Shown here: positions 20,763 to 34,275 of the stretch, one piece after another
Position numbering within the stretch: position 1 is the first letter of the stretch
Layout of the letters: each line of letters begins with the position of its first letter
Origin: Ruminococcaceae bacterium YAD3003
Lineage (GTDB): Bacteria > Bacillota > Clostridia > Saccharofermentanales > Saccharofermentanaceae
Reading direction: 5' to 3'
DNA: 64,000 bases
Assembly: GCA_900107185.1 (NCBI GenBank)
Contig: FNPA01000007.1
Coordinates: 1 to 64,000 of the forward strand
Translations under genes and position numbers: made by a program
The notes under the pieces: model-generated
Seen by the model: the letters and a program-made list of their open reading frames with translations, nothing else
What the model was told of the DNA's origin: nothing
Database searches by the model: none

Positions 20763-21743
20763 TCAATCCTCTTTATTAATTAGTTCTTCAACCTCGCCAA
20801 GAGACGGATACGAAGGAATAGCACCCTTTTTCCTGACACTGATGGAACAAAATGTCTCAGCGAACTCTAACGCTTCAGTCAGTTTATCTTCAGTAATATC
20901 TTCCAAACTGTTAAGAGTAATTCCAAAATCATTAAGTTTCCACAGAAATGAACCGACAGAAGCATCACCTGCACCGGTTGTATCGACAGCTGTTACTTCA
21001 GGTGATTTTGCATGTGCTCTGGCGTTCTTTGTAAACGCAGACATACCATCCTTACCGCATGTAAAGAGCACGAGTTTAATTCCTGAATCAAATAAAACAG
21101 GCAAAGCCTTTTCTATATCACTTTCCCCTGTGATGAATTCCAATTCGTCATCAGAAATCTTCAATACATCAGCCTTTGGAATGAACTCCAGAACAGCTTT
21201 CTTAAGCGCATCTTTGTCACTCCACAACATAAATCTCAGGTTTGGATCGAAGCTAATGACCGCGTTGTTTTTTCTTGCATATTCAATTGCTTTGTTGTGT
21301 GCCTCTTTCATGGGGAAATCGCCAAGAGATACGCTGCAGAAATGAAGAGCGTAAATGTTCTCAAAAGCATCTTCCGGCACCTGCTCAGCGGTATAGAGCA
21401 TGTCTGCTGACGGCTTTCTGTAAAAAGAAAATGTTCTGTTACCATCTGCTGCAAGGCTCACAAAAGCGAGAGCCGTATTCGCCTCATCAGTAAATGAAAT
21501 GCGTGATATATCAATACCTTCTTTCCCGAGTGCACGGGCAATCTTGTGACCGAACGGATCGTCACCTAACTTCGTCAGGAATAAAGACTTTCCTCCGAGC
21601 TTTGAATATGCAGCACACACATTTGCAGGTGCCCCTCCGACCGCAGGAAAGAATGACTCAACATCATCAAAATCGCATCCCTGTTGTGAGGGAATAAAAT
21701 CAATCAGAGCCTCTCCGATTGCAACCAGTTTCTTATCAGTCAA
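20763..21743 (-). CDS. scrK: PfkB-family fructokinase
   Basis: 326 residues. PfkB signatures are present: the N-terminal AVGGAPANVCAAYSKLGG and the catalytic VDTTGAGDASVGSFL, whose Asp is the base. The position directly after a GH32 sucrose-phosphate hydrolase with an eight-base overlap argues for phosphorylation of fructose released from sucrose, so fructokinase is the best call. A related sugar kinase specificity cannot be excluded. The gene symbol is inferred from context. Confidence 0.85.
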   Translation of the reverse strand: MTDKKLVAIGEALIDFIPSQQGCDFDDVESFFPAVGGAPANVCAAYSKLGGKSLFLTKLGDDPFGHKIARALGKEGIDISRISFTDEANTALAFVSLAADGNRTFSFYRKPSADMLYTAEQVPEDAFENIYALHFCSVSLGDFPMKEAHNKAIEYARKNNAVISFDPNLRFMLWSDKDALKKAVLEFIPKADVLKISDDELEFITGESDIEKALPVLFDSGIKLVLFTCGKDGMSAFTKNARAHAKSPEVTAVDTTGAGDASVGSFLWKLNDFGITLNSLEDITEDKLTEALEFAETFCSISVRKKGAIPSYPSLGEVEELINKED

Positions 21744-23073
21744 ACCCTCTTACCTCCATCTTTCCTATTGTTCTTAAGGTATATCCAGCACCTTCACTGA
21801 CAACACTGATGCTTTGCCCTGCAGGATAGAATCTTGTGCTCATGACATATCTACCATCACCTGCAAAGATTTCGATGCTGGAGTTGTCGGCAATTATCCG
21901 GATATCGTTTATCCTGCCTGCTCTCACTTTTCGTATCTTACGGCCGTATCCTGATTTACCATTACTGAGATCTAACATCAGAACATCGCCGTAGTAACTG
22001 ATCACCGCATCGCCGATGCTGATCTTAAAGGGTGATTTGATTTTTGCGGATAGTTCACTTGGAAGATTAATTACTTTCGATGTGCCTTCATATATTTCTT
22101 CGCACTCTCCATATAGGTCAGGATTAATCACCGGTGTCTGTCTGATATATCCGTCAGATCCCACAGTAAGTTTGCGGGGAACAGTGAGACAATGCTGCCA
22201 GCCAAATTCAGTTGTCGGGTTGGTATAAGAGCTGTCTCCTATTCCCATCCAGCCTATCAGGATCCTGTCACCGTTCTTATCAATGAACGTCTGCGGAGCA
22301 TAGAAATCGAATCCGTAATCGAACTCTTCAAAATCAAGGAGCCTGTCTCCGTCCACCTTAAAATATCCGGAATTAAACAGATTCTGATATCGGAATTCTT
22401 CACTCGGAACGCCCTGCGGAGACAAACCCAGGAACCAATCGCCGCCAATATTAAACATGTCGGGACACTCCCACATATAACCGAAGTCCTCGATCTTAAG
22501 CACCTTAACAAAATGCCAGTCATCAGGATCTTCAGCCTCGTAGAAGAGAACGCATCCTTTGTCTTCGAGCGTTCTCGCGCCCAGCACCATTTTCCACATG
22601 CCATTCTCGATCCAAACCTTCGGATCTCTGACATGACATGAACAGTAATCAGGATAGTCGCTGTTCCTTAAGATTACCTTCTTAGGGCTTACAGAACGTC
22701 CGTCTGTTGTCGTTACATGTATCTGGTTGGCTTCCCTGCCGGAGGTGACATAATCGTAGTTGCCCGGATGCTCAACGTTTCCTGTGTAGAAGAGATGGAT
22801 TATGCCGTCTTTTACAACTGCACTTCCTGAGAAAACACCTGTCATGTCTTCCGGCAGATCAGGCTCCATTACTACGCCTGTATAATCCCATGATTTACCG
22901 TCATCACTACTCTCGAAATGACCCCATCGCCTTAAACTCGAGCCGTCAGATGTACCGGGCGAATACTGGAAATACACATGATATTTCCCACCGGCAAAGC
23001 ATAATCCGTTCGGATCGTTGATCCAACCGTCCGGAGCTTCCAAATGAATATTTTGCCGCCAGGTGTTTGTCAT
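21736..23073 (-). CDS. scrB: GH32 sucrose-6-phosphate hydrolase (invertase)
   Basis: 445 residues. The GH32 nucleophile motif WINDPNG (Asp about residue 21), the transition-state motif RDP (HVRDPKVW) and the acid/base ECP motif (MWECPDMF) are all present. FSGSAVVKDG and the C-terminal beta-sandwich (DISIEIFAGDGRYVMSTRFYP-like) fit the family. There is no signal peptide, so it is cytoplasmic. It overlaps the fructokinase by eight bases, which makes a sucrose catabolism pair. Fructan-derived sucrose or free sucrose as substrate is possible; no PTS or permease is in the window. Confidence 0.9.
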   Translation of the reverse strand: MTNTWRQNIHLEAPDGWINDPNGLCFAGGKYHVYFQYSPGTSDGSSLRRWGHFESSDDGKSWDYTGVVMEPDLPEDMTGVFSGSAVVKDGIIHLFYTGNVEHPGNYDYVTSGREANQIHVTTTDGRSVSPKKVILRNSDYPDYCSCHVRDPKVWIENGMWKMVLGARTLEDKGCVLFYEAEDPDDWHFVKVLKIEDFGYMWECPDMFNIGGDWFLGLSPQGVPSEEFRYQNLFNSGYFKVDGDRLLDFEEFDYGFDFYAPQTFIDKNGDRILIGWMGIGDSSYTNPTTEFGWQHCLTVPRKLTVGSDGYIRQTPVINPDLYGECEEIYEGTSKVINLPSELSAKIKSPFKISIGDAVISYYGDVLMLDLSNGKSGYGRKIRKVRAGRINDIRIIADNSSIEIFAGDGRYVMSTRFYPAGQSISVVSEGAGYTLRTIGKMEVRGFD

Positions 23074-26437: not shown

Positions 26438-29338
26438 TTACGACCTGTAAGTAGGCTTAGGTCCCAAATAAGAGTCCGGAACCTTAGATCCCTCTTCGCA
26501 GATAACGATCTTCTCCAAAACAAGATTAGGATCTATTGCGTGAATGTTCAGTTCATTTACACCTTCCTTAAGCTCAACCGTTACAACAGTCTTTCGAACG
26601 TTATCAAGAACGCCCTGGGACCAATAAGGGTTGCCATCACCTACTGCAAAGCCTTCAGGAATCATGTTGACCTTTTTAACCTTGCCGCCGTTGACGCTGA
26701 TACCGACGAGAATAGAAGGTTCGCGGCTGAACGGATTGCTCGGATTCGTAAATAACGTAACATCGTATTTGCCTGACTTAGGAACTGCGATCTTATACTC
26801 CAGATAAGGCGCATTCTTAACACCAAATACCTTTTCCTGCGGATAGGCCTTGATGGCATCCATTCCGCGGCTGTAATCGGGAATGATCCTAAATGAAGCA
26901 AAATCAGATGATGCAAAACACCTGCTGTAACCGTTTGCAGGAATTGAGATGTAATTCATTCCGAAAGCATTCTCTCTGACAGTCCTGTAATGAATATTGG
27001 CCTTGATGATATCTTCGCCAAAATCCTTACGGTCGACCCAGTGATAAATCTTATCACCCTTAAATGCGGAAGCCTTATTAAACGGAACCTTAACTACTGT
27101 GTAACTGTCACTCGAATGGATACAGAATTCAGCAGCATCTCCACGCCTGATCGCAGTACGGTCTATCTTAACCTTGAGTTCCATAAGTGTATAAGGTTTA
27201 ACCTCGCCCTGCTCTGCTGAAAAGCTGAGACCCTTGCAAGGATTTTCAACACTGAACTTTACCTTCTTACCGCATCCGGTACTAAGGAACAAAGATGCCT
27301 CGTCGCATGAAGGATCCAGGAATGCATCCATAAGGAGAACACGGCCTGTCCAATATTTTCCTTCGGTGCACTGAGTTGAACCTTTGACGCTGACAATGAG
27401 TCTTTCCTTGTTGCCGGGCTTAAATGTGCCGACAACAGGGTATTTACATTCCTCTTCACACCAGTTGTTGAAACCGATATGTTCTGACAATCCCATTCCA
27501 TACCACTTACCGCCGTGGATCTTGTGGAGTTCATCCACGATCTTTTCATCGAGATCAATACATTCGTTGATCTGTTTAGCGAGTGCCATTGCATATGTGC
27601 TGCCCATATCACAGAATGCGTGATTAAGAGTAGTGAGCAGCCACATTTTCTGAACGTTAAGATTAGCTGTCAGAGGGAGGTGAACGAGTTCATAGAAAGA
27701 GAACTTCGTATTGCCTTCGAGCTTATCGTAGAGCCTGTTGCACTTCTTTGTCAGGCGCTCGATTTCATCTAACAGATCGAATGTCTCATTGTAGTTAAAC
27801 GCATTGTAAATGCGGTCATTCATTGCCTCAGTTCTGCGTGCGGAAGTGATCCTTGTATAACCTCTTAAGAGCTCACAGATCGTGCGTTTATCAGAAGATG
27901 AAACCATCGGACCAAATACACTGTCAACAATGAGTTTCGTATACTCTGTAGCCGCATCCGGATTTGTTGTTCCCCAACGGTCGAAATCGTATGCGAGATC
28001 AAGGAAAAATGCGAGCGGATATTCGTTGCTGAAGATATCACCGACATTAACTATCCAAAGGTCCTGAATTCCGAAGTCGTATGCGGTAGTCATCTGCTCC
28101 CATGTTTTCGCGAGGTGGGATGTATTGAACCACTCGAAAGAAATCGGCAGTCCGTGGTAATCAAAATGATAGTACATTCCATAACCGCCCTTATGCTTAC
28201 GCATTGCAGGTGTCGGAACAGTACGAAGATTTCCGAAATTATCGTCGCAGAGCATCAGAGTTACACCATCAAGTTCAGGATCGCCCATGAGTCCGGGTGT
28301 CTTCTCATCGCCATAGAAATAAGGCTCAACTTCCTTATACAACGCGAGCATTCTCGGAACCGAATCGATATCCTCATTTACGTATTTGCGGATAAGTTTA
28401 TTCTGCGTTTTCAGCACCTTTCTGAGCAGGTCGATGTTATCTTTAAGCGTCGCTTCCTTGCCCATGATCGCGGTATCTGCTTCGCCGCGCATACCGACGG
28501 TAATTACATTCTCGAACTTACCGCTGCGCTTCAGACCGTCTTCCCAGAATCTTGTGATTCCCTTCTCGTTCGACAGGAAGTTCCATGCGTCACCATATAT
28601 GGATTTGGGGCCTCTCAAATGCTTATATTCTTCACCCTGTCTCAGGCACGGCTCGTGATGGCTCATTCCCATTACGACGCCTAATTCATCAGCGAGTTCT
28701 GCATTGGCAAGGCCCGGACCGTCATCAGGGAAGATCTCTGCCCACATTGCAGGCCAAAGATAGTTACCCTTTAGTCTTAATAACAGCTCGAAAACATGTT
28801 CATACATCTTCGCGTTAAAACCGCCGAAATTATGCATGCAGAAGTTACCGAATGCAGGCCACTCATCGTTAATGAAAAAGCCTCTGTACTTAACAGAAGG
28901 TTCCTTAGAGACCATGCAGTAATCAGATGGAATCTTGAACTCCTTCATTTTTGGAGGTTTAACATCGAGCCAGTCGATAAAAGGTGATACACCGAGCATC
29001 TCTGACAGTTTGAAAAGGCCGTAGATAGCGCCTCTCTTATCACTTCCGGTAATTACGAGACAGTTATCGATAACCTCGATTTTATATACTTCTCGCTTAC
29101 CTTTTATTTCTTCAATATCTACGCCAAGTTTTCCGATTAACTTGTCACCAGCTAAGCCGACAACTATGGGTGATTTGCATTTAATGGAAGAAGTAACTGA
29201 GGGTTCGTATCCGAATACAGCTTTTATGTCACCGGCAACTTTACAAGCGATCTTACGCACACCGCTTAATGTGTCCTTGCCACAAACCAGCTCAATATCT
29301 TTGTTCTTTAACTTGGCAGAAGAGATTATAAAATCCAT
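26438..29338 (-). CDS. GH115-family alpha-glucuronidase-like protein
   Basis: 966 residues from ATG 29338 (AAGGGG eight nt upstream; a TTG two codons earlier is less likely). The GH115 core is clear: VKYRGFFINDEWPAF, MWAEIFPDDGPGLANAEL, VVMGMSHHEPCLRQGEE, YHFDYHGLPISFEWFNTSHLAK (not all contiguous), and a C-terminal beta-rich domain. GH115 enzymes remove glucuronic or 4-O-methylglucuronic acid from xylan side chains. There is no signal peptide, so it should act inside the cell on imported xylo-oligosaccharides. The gene is 58 nt below the TrmH-type gene in a same-strand run with a sugar-binding GGDEF protein. Confidence 0.88.
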   Translation of the reverse strand: MDFIISSAKLKNKDIELVCGKDTLSGVRKIACKVAGDIKAVFGYEPSVTSSIKCKSPIVVGLAGDKLIGKLGVDIEEIKGKREVYKIEVIDNCLVITGSDKRGAIYGLFKLSEMLGVSPFIDWLDVKPPKMKEFKIPSDYCMVSKEPSVKYRGFFINDEWPAFGNFCMHNFGGFNAKMYEHVFELLLRLKGNYLWPAMWAEIFPDDGPGLANAELADELGVVMGMSHHEPCLRQGEEYKHLRGPKSIYGDAWNFLSNEKGITRFWEDGLKRSGKFENVITVGMRGEADTAIMGKEATLKDNIDLLRKVLKTQNKLIRKYVNEDIDSVPRMLALYKEVEPYFYGDEKTPGLMGDPELDGVTLMLCDDNFGNLRTVPTPAMRKHKGGYGMYYHFDYHGLPISFEWFNTSHLAKTWEQMTTAYDFGIQDLWIVNVGDIFSNEYPLAFFLDLAYDFDRWGTTNPDAATEYTKLIVDSVFGPMVSSSDKRTICELLRGYTRITSARRTEAMNDRIYNAFNYNETFDLLDEIERLTKKCNRLYDKLEGNTKFSFYELVHLPLTANLNVQKMWLLTTLNHAFCDMGSTYAMALAKQINECIDLDEKIVDELHKIHGGKWYGMGLSEHIGFNNWCEEECKYPVVGTFKPGNKERLIVSVKGSTQCTEGKYWTGRVLLMDAFLDPSCDEASLFLSTGCGKKVKFSVENPCKGLSFSAEQGEVKPYTLMELKVKIDRTAIRRGDAAEFCIHSSDSYTVVKVPFNKASAFKGDKIYHWVDRKDFGEDIIKANIHYRTVRENAFGMNYISIPANGYSRCFASSDFASFRIIPDYSRGMDAIKAYPQEKVFGVKNAPYLEYKIAVPKSGKYDVTLFTNPSNPFSREPSILVGISVNGGKVKKVNMIPEGFAVGDGNPYWSQGVLDNVRKTVVTVELKEGVNELNIHAIDPNLVLEKIVICEEGSKVPDSYLGPKPTYRS

Positions 29339-29396
29339 AAGCAAATCCCCTTATATGCAACTTCCATACAAGCATACAACACTTTGCTTAAAAATG

Positions 29397-30242
29397 CTAT
29401 TTCATTAATTCCCAAAAACTGATAGCGCTGGCAGCAGCGACATTTAATGAGTCAACGCCGTGGTACATAGGGATCATTACACGGTAATCGCAGGCAGCGA
29501 TCACTTCCTTTGGTAATCCCGTGCCTTCCGTTCCCATGATGACAGCGAGCTTCTCATTTGCTCTGATCTCATCATTATCAACACTCGTCGAATCTTCTGT
29601 TAAAGCCATTGCGACAGTCTTAAATCCGTTCTTCTGAAGTGTCTTAATTAAATTTAAACTTTCTGATTCTTCCCTGGTCGCTTTCGCCCATGGCATCTGG
29701 AAAACCGTTCCCATGCTCACTCTTGCTGAACGTCTGGTAAACGGATCTACGGATGCTGCCGTAAGGAGCGCGCCATCCATACCGAGCGCAGCTGCACAAC
29801 GGATTATCGCACCGACATTGGTGGGATTAACTACATCAAATAAAACGGTTATGCGTCTTTTGTCCTGACAAAAATCTTCCACCGTGACATCCGGTCTTCT
29901 TCTGAGGATCATCCAGAGTCCTCTGACCAACGCATAACCCGTTAGATTGATAACAACTTCTTTTTTCGCTGTATAGACTGGAATCGAATCAAGTTTTTCT
30001 TTGCCCCATAGCTTTTCTATGCATTCAAAAACAGGACCCGCCTCAACCTCTATTCTGCTCGTTTCTACCAGCATCGAGATGGGCTCATATCCTGCCTCCA
30101 GCGCGCGGAGAATTACATTTCCGCTCTCTGCCAGAAATATTCCGGGTTCGGGTTTATAGTAGTTATACAGTGCAGAGTCTGATACTCTGGCAAACACATC
30201 CAGTTCGGGTGCATTTATATCAGTGATTTCAATCAGGTTCAT
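29397..30242 (-). CDS. TrmH/SpoU-family RNA 2'-O-methyltransferase
   Basis: 281 residues. An N-terminal helical domain (about 1-110) is followed by the SPOUT knot with motifs NPTNVGAIIRCAAALGM, IMGTEGTGLP and IPMYHGVDSLNVAAA, which carry the catalytic Asn/Arg and SAM-binding loops. The target, rRNA or tRNA, is not readable. It lies nine nt below the GGDEF gene and so probably shares its message, although a functional link is unclear. Confidence 0.88.
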   Translation of the reverse strand: MNLIEITDINAPELDVFARVSDSALYNYYKPEPGIFLAESGNVILRALEAGYEPISMLVETSRIEVEAGPVFECIEKLWGKEKLDSIPVYTAKKEVVINLTGYALVRGLWMILRRRPDVTVEDFCQDKRRITVLFDVVNPTNVGAIIRCAAALGMDGALLTAASVDPFTRRSARVSMGTVFQMPWAKATREESESLNLIKTLQKNGFKTVAMALTEDSTSVDNDEIRANEKLAVIMGTEGTGLPKEVIAACDYRVMIPMYHGVDSLNVAAASAISFWELMK

Positions 30243-30251
30243 TTATTCCTA

Positions 30252-32150
30252 TTATTTTCCTTTTTTCGCTGCCTTGTCTCTGTACATCTCATCATCAGCT
30301 CGCTTGTTTACATCCGTAACAGAAGCATCTGTCTCAGGATTGAAGACAGACATTCCGCAAGCAACTGACACATAATCAGCAGGCAAAGGCATAGTATCTG
30401 AATAAGGACTCAGCTGTTCATTGAATTTAGCTAACAGTTCATCACGCATATCATAATCCTCACCGCTCAGAACAGCAACAAATTCATCTCCGCCCATTCT
30501 AAATACAGGACTGTGTTTGAATACATTGCAAATGAGATGACATGATCTGATCAGATACTCATCACCGGCTTCGTGACCCTCAGTATCGTTTATCAGCTTC
30601 AGATTATTTACATCGAACATAACAACAGCAAATTTCAAATCCTCATCGGAATTGATAAGTGATTGCAGATGCTTTTCTTTATCTTCGAAAGCCATACGGT
30701 TACTTACTTTGGTAAGTGGATCGCGTCTCATAATATCCAACAGTCTCTTATTCATGAGATCCAATGTAACTGCATGACTGAATTTATCGATTACAAGACT
30801 CATTCGGTTCTCATAAATATGAAGGAAACGGTTCGGGATACTCTCGAGGCAATCTCTGAATACGATATATCCGTATGCGGCATCCGCTTCGTGAAGAGGC
30901 AGGAATGCATACATATGATTCTCGCCGTCATCCTTATAACCCGGAATCAGTTCGCGTGAATCAATCGATTCACCATCGAAATGTACACCGTTCTCAGTAG
31001 AATAGAGCACTTCAACTTTTCTGCTGTATTTATCAGTATTTAGCTTTACGCTCGAATCATATATCGACAAACCGAAATTAGGTTCCAACAACACATGGAA
31101 AGAGTCGCCTTCGTATGTGTGATTCTCAGTCAGAAGATTATTCAGTTTATCTTTGAAATCCTGATATGAACCGCAGGCCAAAACCGTAGAATCTATCATG
31201 TCGAGCTTACGGTTGAAATACGTTGTTTTAGCACGGTTAGCAACCGCCTCTCGTCCTAACCGTCTTCTTAATTTGTCACTGTTTCTGAACTCATAACAGC
31301 CGCAGCTCTCGCCGGGAATAAACTTACAGTTAATTATCTTACTGCTTCCCTTGTCTGCTCCTTCTGCCAGTTCTTTCAAAAGTTCCACACAAGCTTCGCC
31401 CATCTCGGAAAAGCACTGGTCAACTGAAGCTATTGAAGGATCAAAAGCCTTGCTCTCATCCAGATAATCATATCCGGTTACGAGAACATCGCCCGGCACT
31501 TCAACACCGACATTGGTAAGTGATAAACAGGTTTCCATGGCAAGGCCGTCATTCGCACAAATAAACGCATCCGGAAGAGGTCTGCCCTCATCAGACATCT
31601 CATTTATATGCTTCGTAACAACGGCGTTTTCCCAATTCGTATAATAGACTTCAACCAGGTCTTCTTCGCAATTATTCTCTCTTAAATAGTCCTGAACGGC
31701 CTTGAGTCTCTGATTGGAATCGTGAGAGTCTTTAGTTCCGGCAAAGAATACGATCCTCCTTACACCATGTTCTTTGCGCAAATGCTCACAAAGAGTAATG
31801 GTAGCCTGATAGCCGTCAGAACCGACAAAACCGACATTCTCATGTCTGCCTCCCTGCATTACCAACGGAATACCTGCTTCGTTACATCTGTCGATCAGCT
31901 GTTGTTTCCTGTCCGGGAAATCAAGACCGCTGCCAAAAATCACGGCACCGTCAAAATCGTGAAGATCAGGGAGATTAAATATATTCATTTCACCCTGCTT
32001 AACAGCATCGGAATCAAGATAAGTCGGATAGCAAATAAACAGGAAAATATCTGCGTTCTCATCATTAAGAGCTCCCATCATGCCTGATAGGAACTGAGAT
32101 AATATCTCACCGCACCACCCTGTCGTAAATACTGCTATCTTTTTCTTCAT
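30252..32150 (-). CDS. Cytosolic LacI-type sugar-binding protein fused to a diguanylate cyclase (GGDEF)
   Basis: 632 residues with no membrane segment. Residues ~1-285 resemble the sugar-binding core of LacI-family regulators (FDGAVIFGSG, DAFICANDGLAMETCLSL, GDVLVTGYDYLDES) but lack a helix-turn-helix. A middle ~340-450 region is GAF-like by position and pattern. Residues ~455-632 form the GGDEF domain: DPLTKVSNRMAFEDKEKHL, then the intact GGDEF at 553-557. The RxxD inhibitory motif expected just before it is absent (KHSP), suggesting no product inhibition. It probably makes cyclic-di-GMP in response to a sugar. The location next to GH115 and GH31 fits carbohydrate sensing. Confidence 0.88.
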   Translation of the reverse strand: MKKKIAVFTTGWCGEILSQFLSGMMGALNDENADIFLFICYPTYLDSDAVKQGEMNIFNLPDLHDFDGAVIFGSGLDFPDRKQQLIDRCNEAGIPLVMQGGRHENVGFVGSDGYQATITLCEHLRKEHGVRRIVFFAGTKDSHDSNQRLKAVQDYLRENNCEEDLVEVYYTNWENAVVTKHINEMSDEGRPLPDAFICANDGLAMETCLSLTNVGVEVPGDVLVTGYDYLDESKAFDPSIASVDQCFSEMGEACVELLKELAEGADKGSSKIINCKFIPGESCGCYEFRNSDKLRRRLGREAVANRAKTTYFNRKLDMIDSTVLACGSYQDFKDKLNNLLTENHTYEGDSFHVLLEPNFGLSIYDSSVKLNTDKYSRKVEVLYSTENGVHFDGESIDSRELIPGYKDDGENHMYAFLPLHEADAAYGYIVFRDCLESIPNRFLHIYENRMSLVIDKFSHAVTLDLMNKRLLDIMRRDPLTKVSNRMAFEDKEKHLQSLINSDEDLKFAVVMFDVNNLKLINDTEGHEAGDEYLIRSCHLICNVFKHSPVFRMGGDEFVAVLSGEDYDMRDELLAKFNEQLSPYSDTMPLPADYVSVACGMSVFNPETDASVTDVNKRADDEMYRDKAAKKGK

Positions 32151-32265
32151 AATAAACTCCGGCCGAAGTTGTATTTATATATTGAATTATAGCGTTGTAA
32201 TATAATCCTTTCTTGTCTCTAAATGAAAACAATTCATCAACAATAAGGATAACTCTGCCTGAGAA

Positions 32266-34275
32266 TTACCGTTCAGATCTCTCCCTGATATAAACAGGCA
32301 TTTCCATGTACCCGCGCTTTTCTCTGAAGAAACGTCCATGTTCCAGAACTCTTCTGTCAGTTCCGTCTACAGATTCCCAAACTCCTTCTGGCAGATAGAA
32401 TTCAACCATTCCATCCGTAGAAAAAACAGGTGCAACAAGTATATCTGACCCGAGCATATATTGCTTATCCAAAAATGCACAGACAGGATCATCCTGGAAT
32501 TCCAGAACCATCGGGCGCATTACTGGTATTCCCATTTTTTCTGCCTGCGCTCTGGCTGAATCGATATACGGCATCAGAGATTTCTTGAGTTCAGTATAGT
32601 ATCTCAGCACATCAACAGATTCCTCATCATAATTCCACGGCACGCGGTAAGATGAGCTGCCGTGAAGTCTGCTGTGGGAACTCAAGAGTCCAAAAGCCGC
32701 CCAACGCTTATAAACATCCGGTGTGGACTTATCTTCGAATCCTCCGATATCGTGACTCCAATAAGAGAACCCTGAGAGCATGAGAGACAATCCGCCTCTT
32801 ATAGTCTGTTCCATCGAGGGATAATCAGAATGGCAGTCACCGCCCCAATGGACAGGGAACTTTTGGCCGCCAGCAGTTGCGCTCCTGGCAAACAGAACAG
32901 CCTCGCCCGCACCCTTTTCTCTCTCGAGCAGCTCGAAAACGATCTTGTTGTAAATATACGAATAGAAATTATGCATTCTCAAAGGGTCAGAACCGTCAGC
33001 CCAGACGATATCTTCCACAGGTATCCTCTCGCCGAAATCGGTCTTGAAACAATCGACACCCATATCAAGCAAAGCCTTAAGCTTTCCGCAATACCAGTTG
33101 GCAGCTTCTGCTGAAGTGAAATCCACTATACCCATTCCGGCCTGCCAGAGATCTGTTTGCCAGATGCTGCCGTCAGTCCTCCTGATGAGATATCCGTTCT
33201 TTGCTGCCTCATCGAACAATTCGGATTCCTGTGCAATATAAGGATTGATCCATACGCACACATGAAGACCTCTGTCGTGAAGCTTACTGATAAGTCCCTT
33301 AGGATCAGGGAAGCTGTCACTGTCCCATAAGAAGTTGCACCAATGACTGTCCTTCATCCAGAAACAGTCAAAATGGAATACTGATAACTCTATTCCTCTT
33401 TCTTTCATTCCATCAACAAAAGACAGAACGGTTTTCTCATCGTAATCGGTGGTAAATGAAGTAGACAACCAGAGTCCGAATGACCAGTCAGGGAGCTTCG
33501 GAACACGACCTGTGATGCCCGTGTACAAAGAGACAACATCCTTCATCGATTCTCCTGCAAACAGGAAGTAATCGAGGCACTGGCCTCTTACAGAGAACTG
33601 TACTTTTGATACATTCTCAGATGCCACTTCAAAATTGATCTCTTCAGTATGATTTACGAATACACCAAGGTTCTTATCCGTGATGTAGAACGGAATATTC
33701 TTATACGACTGCTCAGTAAATGTTCCGCCATCTTTGTTGATGATGTCGATGCTCTGGCCGTTCTTTATAAAGTTTCCAAAGCGCTCGCCAAGACCATATA
33801 CGTGTTCACCTACCTGAAGGCTTAACTGTTCTCTCATAAATGAGCCGTGGGCACCGTCTATATACGCCAGTGCGCCCTCACATGAAGCAGTAATTACTTT
33901 TCCGTTTCTCGTGAGAACATAACCGTAGTTATCCTTATTGATCGTAAGAACACTATCGCCACTTTTTATAACAACACTCTTATCGTCTTCTGATGTATCC
34001 AGAGCAATATTACTTTCGAAAAGATCGAAATAAGAAGGAGCCAGAGAATTGTCGCCTTTGAAATGATATGTCTTGATCCTGAATACATTTGGTGCCGGTG
34101 AAGTTATCTCAACAGTTACGTACGGGCCTGAAAGAGTCTGTCCCTTTACAGAAATATGAAACGTGGGATTTGTAAGTGTTACCCTGTCCTTATCTTTTCT
34201 TACGAACCTGACTTCACAGGCAGGATGAATATCAAAGCCTTCCGCTATTTTCCACGCTCCATCTGTAAATATCAT
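32266..34275 (-). CDS. GH31 alpha-xylosidase (YicI-like)
   Basis: 669 residues. The GH31 nucleophile motif reads CFKTDFGERIP (Asp in KTDFGE, as in YicI-type alpha-xylosidases), and the acid/base region is HWGGDCHSDY. Upstream LWDSDSFPDPKGLISKLHDRG matches the barrel's substrate region, and the C-terminal SDILVAPVFS fits the family. No signal peptide is present, so it likely acts on imported isoprimeverose-type xyloglucan pieces. An alpha-glucosidase activity is the main alternative, but the KTDFGERIP form favours xylose. Confidence 0.88.
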   Translation of the reverse strand: MIFTDGAWKIAEGFDIHPACEVRFVRKDKDRVTLTNPTFHISVKGQTLSGPYVTVEITSPAPNVFRIKTYHFKGDNSLAPSYFDLFESNIALDTSEDDKSVVIKSGDSVLTINKDNYGYVLTRNGKVITASCEGALAYIDGAHGSFMREQLSLQVGEHVYGLGERFGNFIKNGQSIDIINKDGGTFTEQSYKNIPFYITDKNLGVFVNHTEEINFEVASENVSKVQFSVRGQCLDYFLFAGESMKDVVSLYTGITGRVPKLPDWSFGLWLSTSFTTDYDEKTVLSFVDGMKERGIELSVFHFDCFWMKDSHWCNFLWDSDSFPDPKGLISKLHDRGLHVCVWINPYIAQESELFDEAAKNGYLIRRTDGSIWQTDLWQAGMGIVDFTSAEAANWYCGKLKALLDMGVDCFKTDFGERIPVEDIVWADGSDPLRMHNFYSYIYNKIVFELLEREKGAGEAVLFARSATAGGQKFPVHWGGDCHSDYPSMEQTIRGGLSLMLSGFSYWSHDIGGFEDKSTPDVYKRWAAFGLLSSHSRLHGSSSYRVPWNYDEESVDVLRYYTELKKSLMPYIDSARAQAEKMGIPVMRPMVLEFQDDPVCAFLDKQYMLGSDILVAPVFSTDGMVEFYLPEGVWESVDGTDRRVLEHGRFFREKRGYMEMPVYIRERSER

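Follow-up and report, generated by a model that had tools for sequence, protein, structure and literature searches.

Can a single soluble protein couple an intracellular sugar to the synthesis of cyclic-di-GMP (c-di-GMP), and if so, which sugar might it read? This question is raised by a gene, whose product is hereafter termed P0001, in the window analyzed here, i.e. the first 64,000 nucleotides of contig FNPA01000007.1 of Ruminococcaceae bacterium YAD3003. The original prediction had described P0001 as a cytosolic fusion of a LacI-type ligand domain, devoid of its DNA-binding part, and an intact GGDEF domain. Based on the features of its sequence, we consider it fairly probable that P0001 is a soluble diguanylate cyclase controlled by intracellular sugar.

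The open reading frame has exactly the extent given in Table 1 and starts with ATG. In its N-terminal part, a LacI-type effector core was matched by Pfam PF13377 and PF00532 (Peripla_BP_3 at residues 126-283, 80.9 bits, cut-off 26.5), and a GGDEF domain was matched at residues 476-630 (89.4 bits, cut-off 23.8), with no Pfam match to an HTH family in P0001. The AlphaFold model of the protein reached a mean pLDDT of 88.6 from an alignment of 22 sequences. In structural comparisons, residues 1-285 were matched to 7ff4 with a Z-score of 22.4 (rmsd 2.6 over 268 residues), and LacI-family cores scored between 22.4 and 20.5, over about 253-270 residues each, in the best 50 rows. As the match to P0001 begins at residue 58-62 of the LacI, PurR and CcpA entries, the N-terminal HTH and the hinge are missing in P0001; in the model, the output module is joined to the end of the core opposite to that carrying the DNA-binding domain in LacI. 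Moreover, the frame opens at the first beta strand, and neither a signal peptide nor a membrane helix was read from the P0001 sequence and model, indicating that the protein is apparently cytosolic. Both the proposed fusion and its location were thus borne out by the Pfam assignments, the structural matches, the missing HTH and the reading of the N-terminus. Orthologues at 57-69% identity are encoded in other genomes, so the architecture is not a product of chance; their records partly carry rumen or gut sample names, and the source genus is found in animal guts.

Table 1. Features of the P0001 locus, in window coordinates.
Feature	Position	Strand	Basis and remarks
LacI core - GAF-like - GGDEF gene (P0001), 632 aa	30252..32150	-	ORF, translation, Pfam, orthologues
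LacI/Peripla_BP_3 effector core, residues 1-285	31296..32150	-	Pfam, structural match, phmmer alignment, conservation
Candidate ligand residues in the P0001 core: R148, W173, N200, D201, D228, Q245			LacI alignment and conservation
Long helix, GAF-like domain, long helix into GGDEF, residues 290-475	30726..31283	-	Separate AlphaFold model
GGDEF (diguanylate cyclase) domain, residues 476-630	30261..30725	-	Pfam and conserved active-site residues
GGDEF motif, residues 553-557	30480..30494	-	Translation and conservation
GGAG, probable ribosome-binding site	32157..32160	-	Sequence reading; six bases 5' of ATG
GH31 alpha-xylosidase (YicI type), upstream neighbour	32266..34275	-	115 bp before P0001 gene
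SpoU-type RNA methyltransferase, downstream neighbour	29397..30242	-	Pfam; 9 bp after P0001 stop
GH115 (alpha-glucuronidase family)	26438..29344	-	Pfam
Terminator-like hairpin after GH115	26406-26372	-	Strongest of consensus scan

The gene had also been placed among hemicellulose genes. The upstream neighbour is confidently assigned (NCBIfam NF007940 alpha-xylosidase, 1070 bits, cut-off 606; also Pfam GH31), and the GH115 gene lies downstream, so the setting holds for the window itself; as a guide to the ligand it is weak, the GH31 gene alone being supported by the comparisons described below. GH115 was discarded for this purpose: among 85 genus genomes it occurs near P0001 in this window only, the next nearest instance seen being on the same contig at about 20 kb in G007. 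The GH31, P0001 and SpoU-type genes all lie on the same strand, and the consensus scan listed no terminator-like site between GH31 and P0001 or between P0001 and the SpoU-type gene, which is probably cotranscribed with the P0001 gene. A weaker terminator-like site (30352-30326) falls inside the end of the P0001 gene; as consensus matches only, such sites numbered 17 in the window versus 9.1 expected in shuffles. Promoter-like sites were no more frequent than in shuffles (24 versus 30.0 expected in the consensus scan), and none is claimed. Elsewhere in the window, a GH32 hydrolase adjoins a PfkB sugar kinase (20763-23073, minus strand), likely a sucrose/fructan pair unrelated to hemicellulose.

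P0001 served as query against 70 genomes (G000-G069), and the GH31 and GH115 proteins against 85 genus genomes; 15 of the latter (G118-G132) entered the GH31/GH115 searches only and were left out of the co-occurrence test. Orthologue status was assigned from the matches listed and from the best E-value of each genome, an approach by which fragments may be missed, and a 32-residue GH31 scrap (69%) in G002 was not counted. Among the matches listed, 16/70 genomes had an orthologue of P0001 at 57% identity or above, one of them as a 173-residue fragment lying at the end of a contig. A close GH31 (at least 66%, in some genomes in pieces) was present in 24/70, of which 11 also had the P0001 orthologue. 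The close alpha-xylosidase accordingly accompanied 11 of the 16 genomes with a P0001 orthologue, compared to 13 of the 54 without (Fisher P 0.002, relatedness ignored), and was not found, among the matches listed, in the other five of the 16.

The two genes are adjacent in 4 of the 11 genomes encoding both, and this in two gene orders, with the xylosidase first in the present genome (G000) and the diguanylate cyclase first in G027, G046 and G055. In G004 and G052, GH31 lies at a distance of about 3.0 kb and 6.3 kb, respectively, from the P0001 orthologue; in the remaining 5/11 genomes it is on another contig, and in one of these the cyclase is a contig-end fragment only. Since G027, G046, G055, G004 and G052 have other flanking genes in common, these linkages probably reduce to two independent adjacencies; in a genome of 2.6 Mb, random placement would bring the two genes to within 10 kb of each other in at least 2 of 11 cases with a probability of about 0.003. 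At the level of clustered orthologue loci, the GH31 cluster was seen at 6/27, some of the contigs being very short. The neighbours of P0001 orthologues differ widely between genomes, and none of 20 proteins chosen among those elsewhere was a glycoside hydrolase according to Pfam; they include an aminotransferase, a SUFU-like protein, a HAD hydrolase, a CAAX protease, a MATE exporter, an AraC-type regulator and an NAD-dependent epimerase.

If control by a sugar is granted, the chances are about even that the sugar is a common one (a hexose or cellobiose) and that the position beside hemicellulose genes is incidental. The variable neighbours, the GH115 linkage confined to this window and the cellobiose- and ribose-bound regulators present among the structural matches of P0001 all fit such a reading, but the adjacency to alpha-xylosidase in two gene orders and the co-occurrence of the two genes speak against it. 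As GH31 is linked in 6/11 genomes and GH115 is unlinked elsewhere, an alpha-xyloside, be it isoprimeverose, which had been put forward originally, or a xyloglucan oligosaccharide, ranks ahead of the xylo-oligosaccharides and glucuronic acid proposed along with isoprimeverose; as the actual P0001 ligand, it is the leading candidate, albeit a weak one that is more likely wrong than right. In Ruminiclostridium cellulolyticum, the breakdown of imported xyloglucan oligosaccharides by an alpha-xylosidase in the cytoplasm has been described (PMC4780118), and a cytosolic sensor of such oligosaccharides would make sense beside this enzyme.

We next consider whether the core is built for a sugar at all. 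In a phmmer search, the P0001 core aligned with LacI and with an ancestral LacI. Counted along this alignment, LacI residues R197, W220, N246, D274 and Q291, which are inducer contacts, correspond to R148, W173, N200, D228 and Q245 in P0001; the position matched to LacI D149 (P0001 residue 101) is not an acid. Within an alignment of 19 orthologues with a mean column identity of 64%, R148, W173, N200, D201 and D228 are identical in all 17 covering the region, and Q245 is retained in the same rows. Extending the comparison to 24 cores (P0001 and 23 chosen relatives, including 12 of the 15 paralogue loci L047-L061, with L049, L050 and L053 left out), R, N and D201 were found in 24/24 and an aspartate at the D228 position in 22/24, compared to 14/24 for W and 10/24 for Q. 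Judged from these residues, the pattern suits a set of related pockets with differing ligands and does not by itself prove a sugar as ligand.

Pocket residues R, N and D occur in the LacI family at large, non-sugar members included, and a non-sugar ligand is thus possible for P0001. The core might accordingly take a purine, a nucleotide or another metabolite, as PurR does, or a protein partner, as CcpA does, and the structural scores of PurR (21.5) and CcpA (21.4) are tied with that of LacI 1jwl (21.7). We nevertheless regard this as unlikely, given that W173 and Q245, located at LacI inducer-contact positions, are kept in the orthologues. Separately, a C283-x-C285 pair at the junction of the LacI core and the GAF-like domain (window about 31296-31304) is the same in 17/17 orthologues and in 21/24 cores, possibly as a metal or redox site, or merely as a structural element.

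Between the core and the GGDEF domain, at about residues 290-475, lies a GAF-like domain that had been missed originally. No Pfam family matched residues 286-475, and no GAF family was found at an E-value of 0.01 or better. When this segment was modelled alone with AlphaFold (pLDDT 83.7), VIA-align placed first a PDE6 chain that bears GAF domains (Z 10.7, rmsd 3.7, 177 residues), and GAF-bearing proteins make up most of the rows listed. With Foldseek, GAF and phytochrome GAF entries were leading, albeit with a best E-value of only 4.8e-3. According to these models, the middle part of P0001 is predicted to adopt a GAF fold, flanked on both sides by long helices (290-324 and 442-474), and it could relay the signal, gate it or bring in a second input. 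The directness of the route from sugar to c-di-GMP that had been proposed therefore has to be qualified, the GAF-like domain being placed between sensor and cyclase.

Could this domain be the real sensor, for example of a nucleotide or of redox state, with the LacI-type core serving mainly for dimerisation? Sensory GAF domains are known from other diguanylate cyclases, as in Lcd1 with cAMP, and the conserved cysteine pair at the junction would be in line with such a role. We hold it to be doubtful, since the LacI-like pocket is invariant in 17/17 orthologues whose columns are on average 64% identical, and the Pfam signature of GAF is absent.

Turning to the output, D513, N521, D530, the GGDEF motif with D555 and E556, and K626, whose roles are known from PleD-type structures, are identical in 18/18 covering orthologues, and the active-site residues of the P0001 GGDEF domain are, as read from the sequence, complete. 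A residue at the position of D530 separates c-di-GMP cyclases from Hypr-type cGAMP synthases, and the aspartate found here argues for c-di-GMP as the predicted product. At the position of the inhibitory site, P0001 has F544-K-H-S547; none of the 18 covering orthologues has RxxD (position 544 is F in 15 and Y in three, and 545-547 are KHS in all 18), in agreement with the original prediction that the usual site is lacking. Cyclases without an I-site are common, and its absence is unremarkable by itself. That the GGDEF domain is instead a regulatory module binding c-di-GMP or GTP, with no cyclase activity in the cell, as might be imagined in a genome whose 40 GGDEF matches may hold inactive copies, is very improbable in view of the catalytic positions identical in 18/18 orthologues and of the missing I-site, through which inactive GGDEF domains usually bind c-di-GMP.

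Taken together, these observations suggest a model in which sugar binding, the identity of the ligand, cyclase activity, the direction of control and a dimer mechanism are all inferred. A dimer of LacI-type cores would bind an imported oligosaccharide, most likely one with an alpha-xyloside, like the substrates of the adjoining alpha-xylosidase, and closure of the core on its ligand would move the C-terminal end of the core. This movement may be passed through helix 290-324 to the GAF-like domain and from there through the 442-474 helix, and would set how the two GGDEF domains are aligned with each other. The ligand would be more likely to turn the cyclase on than off, and with no I-site present, the output would follow the ligand and not be capped by product at that site.

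P0001 is one of a set of such proteins. The present genome (2.67 Mb) has 40 GGDEF matches, 39 of them over the cut-off, and 13 EAL matches. Nine of its 11 Peripla_BP_3 matches, P0001 among them, share a frame with GGDEF; one of these nine frames also carries EAL and one is preceded by a GH16-like domain, while the other two matches are found with a GntR HTH and in a lipoprotein-like binding protein, respectively. No LacI HTH was matched in this genome; it was matched in 28/85 genus genomes (27 over the cut-off) and in 9/14 controls. Among 14 genus genomes at least 95% complete, including this one, 101/128 Peripla_BP_3 matches belong to frames of at least 491 aa and 27/128 to frames of 326-370 aa, fused and standalone forms being called here by frame length, with the output domain checked only in G000 and at L059 of G013. 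The latter, a 1050-aa frame, has a core 32% identical to that of P0001 and HD_5 in place of GGDEF.

Outside the genus, the first 460 residues of P0001 were matched in 155/398 genomes of the phylum, and the matches listed are mostly on frames of ordinary LacI size. Eight longer frames were scanned and yielded GGDEF (L091), EAL (L092), HD_5 (L093, L095 and L096) and histidine kinase domains (L097 and L098); L094 (591 aa) gave nothing further, and an adjoining cut frame carries GGDEF. LacI cores are thus joined to domains for c-di-GMP synthesis as well as to domains presumed to degrade it.

Several further proteins and gaps in this repertoire deserve mention. A second LacI-GGDEF paralogue (27% identical) is encoded near the orthologue in three genomes (L107 6615-8534, L108 8118-10052 and L114 4969-6903), in one of them directly beside the alpha-xylosidase. 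In the present genome, contig C17 encodes a 1280-aa LacI core - GGDEF - EAL protein (L021, about 253369-256035), and judged by frame lengths only, other genus genomes likewise have Peripla_BP_3 frames in the range of 1200-1298 aa. A 1044-aa frame on contig C10 (L102, 1097-4231, plus strand) combines a GH16-like domain, CBM_4_9, a LacI core and GGDEF; its CBM_4_9 match is just under the cut-off, and a signal peptide is not evident. At the GH16 active-site motif it reads QIDLAE, the usual nucleophile Glu seeming to be Gln, as if the GH16-like domain were a dead hydrolase serving as a sugar-binding sensor. Judged again by length, frames of 1041-1051 aa with another of 766-791 aa nearby, the arrangement at L102, are also present in G005, G007, G020, G030 and G032. 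Against its 40 GGDEF and 13 EAL matches, the present genome gave no match to the receptor domain PilZ, which was matched in 5/14 controls; the c-di-GMP-I and -II riboswitch models matched neither here nor in any control genome.

With respect to known systems, P0001 has the effector core, the fold and the inducer-contact positions in common with LacI, CelR and Ccel_1438 of Clostridium cellulolyticum. In contrast to LacI/GalR factors, which carry an N-terminal HTH and hinge, it has neither and ends in a GAF-like and GGDEF output. The layout of sensor, helix and GGDEF domain with complete active-site residues is also that of Lcd1 (GAF) and WspR (REC), from which P0001 differs in having a cytosolic LacI-type core as first sensor and no I-site. 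Venus-flytrap domains on c-di-GMP enzymes are exemplified by RmcA (SBP_bac_3) and by 'Periplas_BP' in a 2022 review (PMC8846402); RmcA, however, senses arginine by a PBP family other than that of P0001, and the PBP-clan domains are described there as periplasmic, whereas no membrane segment was seen in P0001. The same review names a variety of solutes, sugars among them, as possible ligands of the LacI-like domain and notes its combination with c-di-GMP enzymes, so the idea is not new in outline. In the one passage of a 2005 census (PMC1183210) that mentions LacI, it is named only as a transcription regulator. AI-2 was considered as a ligand and set aside: as far as the accessible text of an AI-2 survey goes (PMC12268683), Peripla_BP_4 occurs in LsrB and LuxP, AI-2 receptors with GGDEF are of the CahR (dCache_1) and YeaJ (GAPES1) types, and nothing is offered for AI-2 on a cytosolic protein. 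Among the titles and abstract openings listed in the literature searches, we found no characterised LacI-core cyclase and no paper on Peripla_BP_3 with GGDEF or on a substrate-binding domain with GGDEF.

The input of nutrient sugars to c-di-GMP is poorly known. In Vibrio cholerae, EIIA-Glc and PdeS connect sugar status with c-di-GMP (PMC8846402), a connection that P0001 would make as well; there, however, the signal takes an indirect path to a phosphodiesterase, by way of the phosphotransferase system and a partner protein. A soluble one-protein switch from sugar to c-di-GMP, if true, would be open to purification and direct testing, and its natural relatives, which differ in their pocket residues and have either a cyclase or a presumed phosphodiesterase as output, offer a series for the analysis of specificity and coupling. 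Of greater interest than P0001 alone is the set of LacI-core c-di-GMP enzymes across the genus. As a speculative picture, less likely than P0001 being under sugar control at all, this Saccharofermentans-like genus may have moved its LacI repertoire largely to c-di-GMP, with cyclases and opposing LacI-core EAL and HD-GYP-type proteins reading imported oligosaccharides and P0001 representing the xyloglucan/alpha-xyloside channel. A set of such proteins may let the cell change its behaviour according to its intracellular sugars, and if the genus has indeed exchanged LacI transcription factors for c-di-GMP enzymes, its gut bacteria would rely on a second messenger, and not on repressors alone, to adjust behaviour to intracellular sugar.
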